Positions 4,732 to 21,724 of a stretch of 64,000 bases of DNA are shown piece by piece. Under the pieces are notes generated by a model that did not search any database, had not been told where the DNA came from, and saw nothing but the letters and a program-made list of their open reading frames with translations. Source of the DNA: Sphingomonas sp. (GTDB lineage: Bacteria; Pseudomonadota; Alphaproteobacteria; Sphingomonadales; Sphingomonadaceae); NCBI RefSeq assembly GCF_029239295.1, contig NZ_JAQZBC010000004.1:1-64000 (forward strand), in the 5' to 3' direction. The position numbers and the translations under genes are program-made. Positions within the stretch are counted from its first letter, which is position 1. Every line of letters begins with the position of its first letter.

Positions 4732-5289
4732 ATGCGCCATGATCGTTCCTTCCACCGCACCGCTCGTCGCCAGGCGACACCGATCTCCTTCTGGCCGGCG
4801 CAGCGGCGGCGGCGGAAGAAGCTGCCGTTTGTGGCGGCGCTGTTGGTGGCAATTGCCACCGGGCTGGCCTCCGGCGTGTGGCTTGTTCCCGATGCGACCA
4901 TGCCGGGCGCTGCCACCTCGACCAGCAGCGCCGGGGCGGCAGTTCGCCACTTCTCCCTGTGCCACACGGGCGGGGGCGAGAATTGCGTGGTCGATGGCGA
5001 CACGATCTGGATCGGCGGCGAGAAGGTGCGCCTGGCCGATATAGACACGCCTGAAACGCATCCGCCGCGCTGTGCCGAGGAGGCGGCGCTCGGCGAGCAG
5101 GCCACCCACCGGTTGCAGGAACTGCTCAACGCCGGCCCTGTCACGCTGGCTGACGCCGATCGCGCCACCGACCGTTATGGCCGACGTCTCGCCATCGTCA
5201 CGCGTAATGGCCAATCGCTGGGTGACGCGCTGGTCGAAGAAGGACTGGCCCGCCCGTGGGAGGGACGCCGCCGGCCCTGGTGCAACTGA
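4732..5289 (+). CDS. membrane-anchored thermonuclease-like (SNase) protein
   Basis: A 185-residue protein with a basic N-terminus, a single membrane or uncleaved signal segment (about residues 31-51), a short linker and a staphylococcal-nuclease-like domain (about 80-178). Visible family residues are the VVDGDT strand (87-91), VRLADIDTPET with Arg100 and the metal-binding acidic residues, acidic residues in the CAEEAALGEQA helix, and DRYGRR (148-152), which corresponds to the second catalytic arginine. These suggest a calcium-dependent phosphodiesterase acting in the periplasm, although many such proteins are uncharacterised. It stands alone between the enoyl-CoA hydratase gene and the convergent chorismate mutase gene. 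Confidence 0.85.
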   Translation: MRHDRSFHRTARRQATPISFWPAQRRRRKKLPFVAALLVAIATGLASGVWLVPDATMPGAATSTSSAGAAVRHFSLCHTGGGENCVVDGDTIWIGGEKVRLADIDTPETHPPRCAEEAALGEQATHRLQELLNAGPVTLADADRATDRYGRRLAIVTRNGQSLGDALVEEGLARPWEGRRRPWCN

Positions 5290-5330: not shown

Positions 5331-5609
5331 TCAGCCGCGCAGCCGCTCATGGTGACGGATCACTTCATCGATGATGAAGCGCAGGAATTTCTCGCTGAAT
5401 TCGGGATCGAGCTCGGCTTCCTCGGCCAAGGCGCGCAGCCGGGCAATCTGCGCGTCTTCGCGGCCGGGGTCTGCCGGGGGCAGACCGGCCTCGGCCTTGT
5501 GACGCCCGACAGCCTGGGTCACCTTGAACCGTTCGGCGAGCAGGCAGACGAGCGCTGCATCGATATTGTCGATGCTCTTGCGATAGCCCCTCAGCACCTC
5601 GTCTGTCAT
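5331..5609 (-). CDS. chorismate mutase (AroQ type)
   Basis: A 92-residue all-helical chorismate mutase of the AroQ class, converting chorismate to prephenate for phenylalanine and tyrosine synthesis. The sequence shows the typical first helix (YRKSIDNIDAALVCLLAERF), the KVTQAVGRHKAEAGLPPADPGRE connection with its conserved basic residues, and a C-terminal EVIRHHERLR helix. The start is the ATG preceded on its strand by gggagg; a longer frame to 5693 lacks a site and would run into the divergent prenyl synthase start. It is monofunctional and probably cytosolic. The gene is divergent from the polyprenyl diphosphate synthase gene, with only 66 bases between them. Confidence 0.9.
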   Translation of the reverse strand: MTDEVLRGYRKSIDNIDAALVCLLAERFKVTQAVGRHKAEAGLPPADPGREDAQIARLRALAEEAELDPEFSEKFLRFIIDEVIRHHERLRG

Positions 5610-5675
5610 TCGCGCCCTCCCATGACGTTCCCCGCAGTTGCGGCCTTGCTCGCGCGTCCGTAGAGGCTGTCGCAG

Positions 5676-11023: not shown

Positions 11024-11611
11024 TCAGCCGCGCGCGCCTGGCTGAACCTTGGGTTCGCTCACGAGCCAGTCGCTGAGCGACAAGTCGCTGGTCGGGCGGG
11101 TCTCTGCGCTCATGCCGTTTTCCATCATCTCGAGCGCCCAATGTGCGCGCTCACCATGCTGAGAGGCGACGGCATCGCTCGGCACCCACAGATCATATTC
11201 GCGCATATGAGCGTCTGCCGCAGTGAACAGGACGCAGATGTCCGCCGCAACGCCGATCAGCACAAGTCGCGAGACGCCCAGCCGCGGCAGCAGCGCGGGA
11301 AGCGTGGTGGCATAGAAGCCGGAGGATTCCGGCTTGATGACGAAATAGTCGTCCGGCCCAGGCTTCAGTTGATCGAGAAGGTCGCCGCCCTTTCCTGCGG
11401 CGACATGGGCGACCAGCTGATGCGGTTCGTCATGCCAGCGACCGTAATTGTCGTTGACGAAGATGACCGGAACGTCAGCCTCGGCAGCCTGGCGACGAAG
11501 CGAGGTAACCGGTTCCACCATATCGGCAACAGCTTGCTTCAATTTGTCCCCGCCGTCGAAGTCGAACGTATTGAGAAGGTCGATGGCGAGGATGGCGGCG
11601 TTGTTGCTCAT
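11024..11611 (-). CDS. isochorismatase-family cysteine hydrolase
   Basis: A 195-residue protein of the isochorismatase-like hydrolase superfamily. The catalytic triad pattern is visible: Asp in ILAIDLLNTFDF (about residue 10), Lys in FVIKPESSGFYAT (about 91), and the Cys in GVAADICVLFTAADA (about 121) with the preceding cis-peptide-type AA pair. These enzymes hydrolyse amides, ureides or nicotinamide-like compounds; the substrate here is unknown. The chosen ATG has gaaagg very close upstream; a GTG three codons earlier (11620) is the alternative. The gene is downstream of the structured RNA region at 11702-11919 on the same strand. Confidence 0.85.
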   Translation of the reverse strand: MSNNAAILAIDLLNTFDFDGGDKLKQAVADMVEPVTSLRRQAAEADVPVIFVNDNYGRWHDEPHQLVAHVAAGKGGDLLDQLKPGPDDYFVIKPESSGFYATTLPALLPRLGVSRLVLIGVAADICVLFTAADAHMREYDLWVPSDAVASQHGERAHWALEMMENGMSAETRPTSDLSLSDWLVSEPKVQPGARG

Positions 11612-11701
11612 GCCTTTCACCGTAATGGCGGCGACGTGGCGAACAACGATCTAGATCAGGACAAGATGATTTAGTGGTGCGCTTGGTTGCCGCCATTGCT
11701 G

Positions 11702-11919
11702 CAAAAGGAAACGCCCGGATCGTTTCCGATCCGGGCGCCTGCGTGACGATTGCTCGTCAGCCCCCTTGTGCTACCGCCCGCGCGCCTCAACCAAGAGGCG
11801 GGGCAGAAAGCTTCCCCGAACCACGGCCTTTGCCTGTGTGCCAGTAGCCTGTTGCTACGTGCTCCTTGGTTAGGCGTCCACGAAAATGAACGCCAGCTAA
11901 ACAGATTGATCGGGGGCTG
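11702..11919 (-). ncRNA. candidate structured non-coding RNA of unknown family
   Basis: This gene-free region folds into a nested set of perfect stems: outer stem 11912-11919 with 11758-11765 (8 bp); inner stem 11865-11875 with 11784-11795 (11 bp, one bulge); hairpins 11844-11848/11854-11858 and 11799-11803/11814-11818; hairpin 11744-11749/11754-11759 with a GCAA loop on the minus strand; and an 11-bp terminator-like hairpin 11712-11722/11727-11737 with a GAAA loop, followed on the minus strand by tttccttttg. The tetraloops and T-rich tail favour the minus strand. It is not recognisable as 6S, tmRNA, SRP, RNase P or a common riboswitch. It could be a free small RNA or a leader of the hydrolase gene 90 bases downstream; a lolC leader on the plus strand is the alternative. 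Confidence 0.55.
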
Positions 11920-11977
11920 TGATGATTCCGCAACAGCAACGTTGCCAGTGTGAAGCCGCGCCGATAGAGCGGGGGCC

Positions 11978-13228
11978 ATGATCCTGTCGCGCTACGAACG
12001 AATGATCGCGCGGCGCTATCTGCTTCCCGGGCGCGGCGAACGCTTCATTGTCCTCGTGGCCGGGTTCAGCCTCGGCGCGGTGATGCTGGGTGTTGCGGCG
12101 CTCGTGATCGTGATGAGCGTCATGAATGGCTTCCGGGCCGAACTGTTCGACAAGATCGTCGGGCTCAATGGCCATGCGGTGGTGCAGGGTGTCGGCGGGC
12201 GACTGACTGACTGGCGCGACGTGGTGCGCGAGGCTGATGCCACGCCGGGCGTGATCAGCGCCGTGCCGTTGGTCGAACAGCCGCTGATGTCGACCTATAA
12301 CGGCCGTGTCGAGGCGGTGCTGGTGCGCGGTATGCGCGTGCAGGATATCCGGTCGAACACGACCATCGGTAGCAAGGTGATCACGGGCACGCTCAGTTCG
12401 CTGACGCCCGGGGCCGGACGCGTCGCGATCGGATCGCGGCTCGCCGAATCGCTAGGTGCGACCGTCGGTTCTGAGATCACGCTGATCAATCCGGCAGGGC
12501 AGACGACGCCGTTCGGTACAGTGCCGCGCTACGTCAACTACACGGTTTCTTCCGTGTTCGAGATCGGCGTGTACGATTTCGACAAGGCGTACGTCATCAT
12601 GCCGATGGAGGATGCGCAGACGCTGCTGCTGCTCGGCGACGCGGTGGGCATGATTGAGCTGGAAACTGTGGATGCAGATCGCGTCGGCCAGATACTGGCG
12701 CCGCTGGCGCAGAAGGTCAGCCGCTTTGCCGTGATCAGCGACTGGCGCCAGATGAACGCGCAATTGTTCGAGGCGCTGGCGGTGGAGCGGATCGCGATGT
12801 TCGTGGTGCTGTGCATCATCATCCTGGTCGCGGCGTTCAACATCGCGTCCTCGCTGATCATGCTGGTACGGGCGAAGACGCGCGACATTGCCATCCTGCG
12901 CACGATGGGCGCGACGCGCGGCGCGATGATGCGGATTTTTATGACGGTGGGCGTGACGATCGGCACGCTCGGCATTGTGGCAGGCCTGGTCTTGGGCGCG
13001 CTGTTCCTGTTCTATCGCCAGGCGGTGGTGAATTTCGTTCAGTTCGTCACCGGGCAGGAGCTGTGGGATCCCTCGATCCGCTACCTGACCGAGCTCCCGT
13101 CCAAGCCGGACCCTGTGGAGATCGTTGCGATCGTGGTCATCACTGCGCTCATGACGCTGCTCGCCACCATCTACCCGGCGTTCAAGGCGGCGAGCACCGA
13201 TCCGGTGCAGGTGCTGCGTTATGAGTAA
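11978..13228 (+). CDS. lolC: lipoprotein-releasing ABC transporter permease (LolC/LolE family)
   Basis: A 416-residue permease of the Lol system, which extracts outer-membrane lipoproteins from the inner membrane and passes them to LolA. It has one N-terminal membrane segment (about 22-50) with the conserved [14 protein letters not shown] motif, a large periplasmic domain (about 55-265), and three C-terminal segments in an FtsX-like domain containing [15 protein letters not shown]-like sequence. A single LolC/E-type gene followed by lolD is usual in alphaproteobacteria, where one permease may replace the LolC-LolE pair. The start follows a gggggcc site, and the stop overlaps lolD by eight bases. 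Confidence 0.92.
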
Positions 13229-21554: not shown

Positions 21555-21724
21555 GCGGGTGACGGGACCGCCATGGCCGTTTGCCGGGATATCCACTGAC
21601 GCACGGTACGTCAGGTGGGGACCATGTACGTCGGACCAGGGTCCGGGCAGGGACAGCCCCCTTTGGATGATGAATAGCCTCAGGGATATTAAGGGCTCGT
21701 ACCGGGCAGTACCCGTCACGCCTG
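21555..21724 (-). ncRNA. ssrS: 6S RNA
   Basis: The roughly 170-base gap between zapA and fau holds no reading frame but has the shape of 6S RNA: 5' and 3' ends pair in a long closing stem. Plus-strand positions 21712-21719 pair with 21559-21566 (8 bp, GTGACGGG with CCCGTCAC), and the stem continues inward with five more pairs after a small bulge. 6S RNA binds housekeeping RNA polymerase and slows transcription in stationary phase. The call relies on the conserved zapA-ssrS-fau order plus the closing stem; exact ends are estimates. Confidence 0.75.

Follow-up and report, generated by a model that had tools for sequence, protein, structure and literature searches.

Does the 357 bp intergenic gap that separates a minus-strand hydrolase gene from plus-strand lolC in this Sphingomonas genome (3.47 Mb) hold an RNA gene, and if so, what kind of RNA does it encode? 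The gap lies in a window of 64,000 nucleotides, by which the whole stretch of DNA that was analysed is meant. It is flanked downstream by an isochorismatase-family hydrolase gene (positions 11024–11620, minus strand, identified with Pfam and not conserved as a neighbour) and on the other side by the divergent gene of an FtsX/MacB permease (11978–13228, plus strand, identified with Pfam and by synteny), which we take to be lolC. The initial annotation had placed a structured non-coding element of nested stems at 11702–11919 and had proposed a small RNA or a leader of the hydrolase gene. Comparison with homologous loci confirmed that the element is real and corrected its size and fold, since it is smaller, about 144 nt, and is folded differently. 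We consider it nearly certain that a genuine RNA gene is present, apparently belonging to a conserved small-RNA family of Sphingomonadaceae that is new as a family and known in kind, with transcription predicted from sequence.

Limits and fold of the RNA gene

The gene was placed on the minus strand at 11702–11845, according to a covariance model match (11701–11847), the conservation profile and, for the 5' end, the position of promoter-like boxes. In the aligned homologous loci the conserved block runs from about 11837, where conservation climbs, to about 11708, after which it falls. The 5' end first proposed was not upheld by the homologues. A -35-like box (GTGGAC, 11876–11881) and a -10-like box (TAGCAA, 11852–11857) were recognised on the minus strand by comparison with homologues, most of which carry a -35-like box (e.g. 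TGACA) and a -10-like box (e.g. TAGC) approximately 17–18 bp apart. A -35-like box followed by TANN was found upstream in 69 of 76 rows, 56 of these (56/76 homologues) with TGACA, and the looser promoter boxes were missing in the other seven. A strict sigma-70 consensus scan of 11600–12050 returned no promoter, so the boxes rest on comparison. From their position we infer transcription from the gene's own promoter with a start near 11845, the exact nucleotide being part of the same prediction.

At the 3' end, the perfect 11 bp terminator-like hairpin with a GAAA loop that had been reported for the minus strand is present in the letters (P4, 11712–11737, with arms at 11712–11722/11727–11737). 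Its pairs are formed in 100% of cells, both in the 30 sequences of the genus and in 26 further sequences, with compensatory changes in homologues, and it is followed by the T-rich tail TTTCCTTTTG (11702–11711, minus strand). An intrinsic terminator kept among homologues is what is expected of a stand-alone bacterial small RNA. The tail of the RNA has no long U-run, which makes Hfq binding uncertain.

Upstream of the terminator, three hairpins were defined on the minus strand: P1 (11816–11844), from a single-sequence fold and compensatory pairs, P2 (11770–11811), long and variable in sequence, from folds of 30 homologues and compensatory pairs, and P3 (11744–11759, UGACGA-GCAA-UCGUCA), whose arms are invariant in 30/30 congeneric sequences, and therefore show no covariation inside the genus, with few changes elsewhere. 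Folded alone, the P2 segment formed a hairpin in each of the 30 homologues; a GGGG/CCCC hairpin in the first RNAalifold consensus was replaced by P2, because single-sequence folds showed the latter to be the better hairpin. The P2 segments are 43 to 56 nt long and do not vary in steps of three, so there is no conserved ORF and a coding function was rejected.

The pairing was evaluated on three alignments. In a MAFFT alignment of the 30 sequences, from which the P1–P4 structure had itself been partly derived, 89.4% of cells were paired, 20 of 44 pairs changed on both sides and the covariation score was 0.246, against at most 0.107 for slid structures. A model-fitted alignment of 77 rows, which leans toward the model structure, gave 91.5% paired cells, with 34/44 pairs varying in both partners and a covariation score of 0.331, slid structures reaching no more than 0.089; it includes one spurious row (L003 1695–1811, minus strand), which is counted in the 77-row tallies and dropped from the 76-row tallies. 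The third alignment was sequence-only and consisted of 26 sequences outside the model, drawn from 46 held-out rows. RNAalifold by itself recovered P3 and P4 from it, and not P1 or P2. With P1, P3 and P4 imposed on the same 26 sequences, 93.6% of cells were paired (P1 83.8%), seven of 27 pairs changed on both sides (two in P1, five in P4) and the covariation score was 0.228 against at most 0.072; the pair-type count was weaker, being reached by 41 of 500 shuffles. P2 was compared with 50 shuffles in 39 of the 46 held-out rows, the other seven having no recognisable block patterns. It beat all shuffles in 23 rows and all but one to three in eight, and in the remaining eight 6 to 20 of the 50 shuffles folded as well.

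The predicted hairpins P1, P2 and P4 are thus supported by compensatory changes, and P3 by conservation only. A conserved secondary structure with such changes is a further mark of a stand-alone bacterial small RNA, and it was in part on compensatory changes, now seen in hairpin 1, hairpin 2 and the terminator, that the initial annotation had made its claim depend. The conserved element, its conserved fold and its 3'-side limits are results of computation. Part of the earlier fold was lost in the process. The outer 8 bp stem (11758–11765/11912–11919) is a perfect repeat in the letters, and the inner 11 bp stem forms 11/11 pairs with one bulge in the window; in 29 homologous loci, the window's own excluded, the outer stem kept 8/8 pairs in none (mean 5.1, with three loci keeping 7/8) and the inner stem reached at least 9 of 11 pairs in none (mean 2.7). 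The 5' arms of both lie in 11865–11919, upstream of the conserved block. Both stems, never intact among the 29 homologues, were rejected as biological. Among the three smaller hairpins that had been described, the one with the GCAA loop (GACGA-GCAA-UCGUC) is conserved, within an element that folds differently overall.

Genomic setting and distribution

The position of the gene is constant. lolC adjoins the RNA divergently in 30/30 congeneric loci, for most of which about 1.5 kb of flank was available on each side. In 39 further loci (L033–L071, of which L034 duplicates L013), the gene beside the RNA is lolC in 26 and proS in 10, with neither within the stretch in three, and the RNA is divergent from lolC or proS in 36/39. 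Where all of them were seen (L075, L076 and L081; L213 and L214), their order is pyrG, RNA, proS, lolC, which suggests to us an old arrangement from which proS departed in the window's genus. At these other loci the names comF, hisI, tpiA, secG, pyrG, proS and thrS were given from reading translations and not from a family search. In one genus (g50, L041 approximately 1501–1655) the RNA lies away from lolC as well as from proS, near a gene recognised by eye as threonyl-tRNA synthetase-like.

A composite site, TGTKGC-N8-CACAG-N8-CAATC, lies further upstream on the minus strand (11904–11935), about 59–90 bp before the RNA start and upstream of the aligned rows. Its first part, TGTKGC-N8-CACA, was found upstream in 74 of the 77 aligned rows, and the spurious row is among the three exceptions. 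The site is 85–90 bp from the RNA in most rows and 29–207 bp from lolC or proS; it probably belongs to the RNA gene, because the spacing is kept to the RNA and not to lolC or proS. With at most one mismatch the site occurred in 35 of 41 genomes of the genus (reversed control 0), as a single match in 28 of the 35 and as two or three matches in seven; in one genome (G026) the sole match lies away from the RNA locus. Exact matches numbered 28, with 25 at the RNA locus, one elsewhere (G029, contig 19) and two unplaced (G799, G801). The site is thus found mainly at the RNA locus. Judged from sequence, it is probably bound by a postulated regulator that controls the RNA gene.

DNA homologues were detected in 35 of 37 same-genus genomes, including the window's own, and the two without are 83–84% complete. 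A DNA search of 24 genomes from other families of the order gave a best E value of 0.138. The covariance model (R1) matched 256 of 397 family genomes at an E value of 0.1 or better, the weak matches often covering only the terminator. Matches of at least 40 bits were obtained in 120/397 family genomes and 30/96 genera (row count), and in none outside the family among the genomes sampled. Outside the family, the highest score was 21.4 bits among the 147 genomes of the order sample and 33.4 bits among the 289 of the class sample (model R2); both samples also include members of the family. Eight of 20 weak or distant matches lie beside proS or lolC (L072–L077, L081, L083), and such low-scoring copies (e.g. 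L077, L081, L083) are probably true homologues, so the 40-bit threshold undercounts. The other 12 score approximately 20–39 bits, a range shared with chance matches that end in a terminator.

A pattern search for the second G-run and P3 in named genomes gave at least 120 stretches. Among the matches listed (80), most are from Sphingomonas, with single ones from Stakelama, Hephaestia, Sphingosinithalassobacter and Parasphingopyxis, and two are off-taxon (a Streptomyces and an actinobacterium), probably by chance. G-rich RNA candidates were also seen in other genera between comF-like and hisI-like genes (L215 approximately 5390–5546, L216 approximately 5450–5612, L217 approximately 4802–4964), with UUCAGGG or similar, GAUGAGGGA, GGGGG, UUCGUCACG and then a terminator. 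They score up to 40.4 bits in a scan of 30 genomes that were chosen for weak or no earlier matches, and may be distant relatives of the RNA.

Possible modes of action

The reading we prefer is that of a stand-alone minus-strand small-RNA gene with its own promoter, whose product acts by base pairing in trans via its G-runs; as a whole, we give it a probability of about one in two. The gene would be transcribed from about 11845 to 11702, divergently from lolC and under the control of a regulator bound to the far-upstream site, and the intrinsic terminator would end the transcript. In the folded RNA, short G-runs would separate P1, P2, P3 and the terminator hairpin. Pairing in trans would take place between these G-runs, possibly joined by the invariant UCGUCACGC, and C-rich stretches in partner RNAs, whose translation or stability would change as a result. 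The minus-strand small RNA of the initial annotation has gained from the promoter-like upstream region, the terminator kept among homologues and the compensatory changes. The pairing step, taken separately, is held at slightly less than an even chance, lowered from even when the frequency of unpaired G-runs was counted again.

The G-runs themselves are well conserved. GGGGA precedes P2, AAGGGGG precedes P3 and UCGUCACGC, at and after P3, is invariant. Linker 1 on the minus strand consists of GGAA, the end of a G-run (11812–11815), with UUCGGGGA in 59 of 77 aligned rows; in linker 2 (ACAAGGGGG, 11761–11769, minus strand) all 30 congeneric sequences share an identical GGGGG, and this run stands before the P3 arm in 71/77 rows. 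In single-sequence folds, linker 1 had a mean unpaired probability of 0.41 and exceeded 0.5 in 23 of 73 rows; for linker 2 the mean was 0.51, with 36 of 72 rows above 0.5. In 18 of 76 rows, every G-run stayed at or below an unpaired probability of 0.5. In the window's own fold, AAGG pairs with the tail. Ten genomes were scanned for targets with one seed pattern, the second run's complement placed no more than 30 nt ahead of an ATG. There was no excess, the 18 matches comparing with 36 in the reversed control; two of the 18 matches are the same string, which in the window is antisense of 6S.

The RNA could instead bind a protein or have a structural role, in the manner of 6S, SRP or Y RNA, with the conserved segments serving as a protein site and not as pairing seeds. 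We regard this as doubtful. UCGUCACGC and the arms of P3 vary less than a seed usually does, and the string AAGGGGGCTG is common to the 6S RNA of the same window; however, no Rfam family matches, the 6S gene lies elsewhere, and the patchy detection (30/96 genera at 40 bits) is unlike that of a housekeeping RNA, with the reservation that the model may miss distant copies.

Also unlikely is a multivalent decoy, or sponge, whose two or three G-runs would sequester either a small RNA rich in C or a G-run-binding protein; it would form a new class of decoys controlled by its own far-upstream site. There are two conserved G-runs, and a third was found in the P2 loop in 23 of 30 sequences from other genera, where dinucleotide shuffles gave an expectation of 5.9; this pattern had caught our attention before the test, which used the same sequences, and the shuffles take no account of their relatedness. 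P2 was scored in 69 of 76 rows. Copies in low-G+C genomes also show three G-runs. In the window's own genus there are as a rule only two runs, the third occurring in 6/39 sequences without enrichment (4.4 expected), and in single-sequence folds the G-runs have an unpaired probability of only about one half. The third G-run still points to the G-runs as acting parts. The partner of a decoy is hypothetical, and it would have to be new, because CsrA, the known reader of such G-rich motifs, was not found in family genomes: a search for PF02599, positive in 3 of 14 control genomes, returned 0/21 relatives and 0/119 family genomes of 96 genera. A decoy of CsrA itself was rejected on this count. If the G-runs do act as a decoy, an RNA-binding partner awaits discovery in a family without CsrA.

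It is very improbable that the gap holds no RNA gene and is an intergenic control region acting in both directions and containing a terminator, with folds that simply follow from its G+C-rich sequence. Folding energy gives this explanation some ground. A 226-nt stretch of the minus strand folded better than shuffles (z -5.83, 0/200), and the plus strand did so too, less strongly (z -3.86, 0/200). For the 144-nt RNA z was -4.87, and without the terminator it was an unexceptional -1.28, with 23 of 200 shuffles as good, so that much of the excess comes from the terminator. The strict promoter scan was likewise negative. The case for an RNA gene therefore rests on comparison and not on energy: there are compensatory changes in P1 and P2, the layout from the upstream site to the terminator is kept across genera, and the position is constant though the downstream neighbour changes. 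The earlier argument that nested stems would be unlikely by chance holds in this altered form, through conservation and covariation and not through folding energy alone.

The initial annotation's other proposal, a leader of the hydrolase gene (isochorismatase family), which would act as riboswitch or attenuator, was rejected as the least probable reading. The RNA is on the same strand as that gene, whose start lies about 80 nt past the RNA end in the window. The hydrolase gene is next to the RNA in only 2 of 30 congeneric loci, the usual neighbour being divergent lolC or proS, and the RNA ends in a terminator that is fully paired in each of the 30. Independence from the hydrolase is a computed result.

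For this RNA gene, a single deletion strain would be informative, because the structure has been corrected, the limits are defined, the place is constant and an upstream site is present.

Relation to known RNAs

The statement that the element belongs to no known family was borne out against Rfam 15, with no match in the window at gathering score and a permissive scan of 11600–12000 reaching at best 19 bits against a cut-off of 50, which is chance level only. The loci L212, L213 and L215–L217 gave no Rfam matches. For 6S (RF00013) there was no match in 11600–12000 up to an E value of 5; for tmRNA, ARAGORN found none in L001, L007 and L029, and the window had no Rfam tmRNA match. 6S, tmRNA and other Rfam families were rejected on the basis of these scans and of the separate 6S gene. 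Apparently, then, a widely conserved RNA gene is missing from Rfam 15.

The 6S RNA of the window was located at 21561–21715 on the minus strand, between zapA and the 5-formyltetrahydrofolate cyclo-ligase gene, as the sole genome match up to an E value of 10. It scores 43.7 bits (E 8.1e-8) against a gathering score of 46.4, so that a scan at gathering score overlooks it. Over both strands, the window has just two copies of AAGGGGG, at 11767 in the present RNA and at 21663 in 6S, each on the minus strand and followed by CTG. The two RNAs share the string AAGGGGGCTG, a similar length and the same window; they are separate genes, and unlike 6S the present RNA does not form one long hairpin with a central bubble.

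In the parts of the literature available to us, the nearest documented RNAs are the Zms small RNAs of Zymomonas mobilis (PMC6970203, PMC7064620, PMC7566282). In low-G+C, 2-Mb genomes of the family the RNA has a pyrG-like gene on one side and proS on the other, with a tpiA-like gene a few kb away, and from G+C and gene order our guess is that these are Zymomonas. Zms6 is listed at ZM4 454669–454972 in PMC6970203, and ZMO0465 is given as triosephosphate isomerase in PMC7210963, so Zms6 and ZMO0465 may be close neighbours. Zms6 may thus resemble the present RNA in rough map position, with the place of ZMO0465 on the ZM4 map estimated from gene numbering, and differs in being longer, 304 nt by its listed ends; compared by position only, it could be the same gene. 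In the open-licence PMC literature, no paper describing this RNA was found, and little on small RNAs of these bacteria apart from Zymomonas.

Decoys of the CsrB/CsrC/RsmX/Y/Z type carry several G-rich motifs in the loops and linkers between hairpins, and CsrB soaks up CsrA. The present RNA is built alike in this respect; unlike in those decoys, the motif is GGGGA/AAGGGGG, linker 2 has no GGA and CsrA is found in 0/119 family genomes.

Intergenic trans-acting small RNAs of bacteria are 100–200 nt long, with several hairpins, an intrinsic terminator and short conserved segments. The present RNA differs from them in its G-runs and long invariant UCGUCACGC, in its short U-run and in having no Rfam match. 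It is like them in its promoter-like boxes, its size, its several hairpins, its terminator and its short conserved segments, and it is most likely a trans-acting small RNA.
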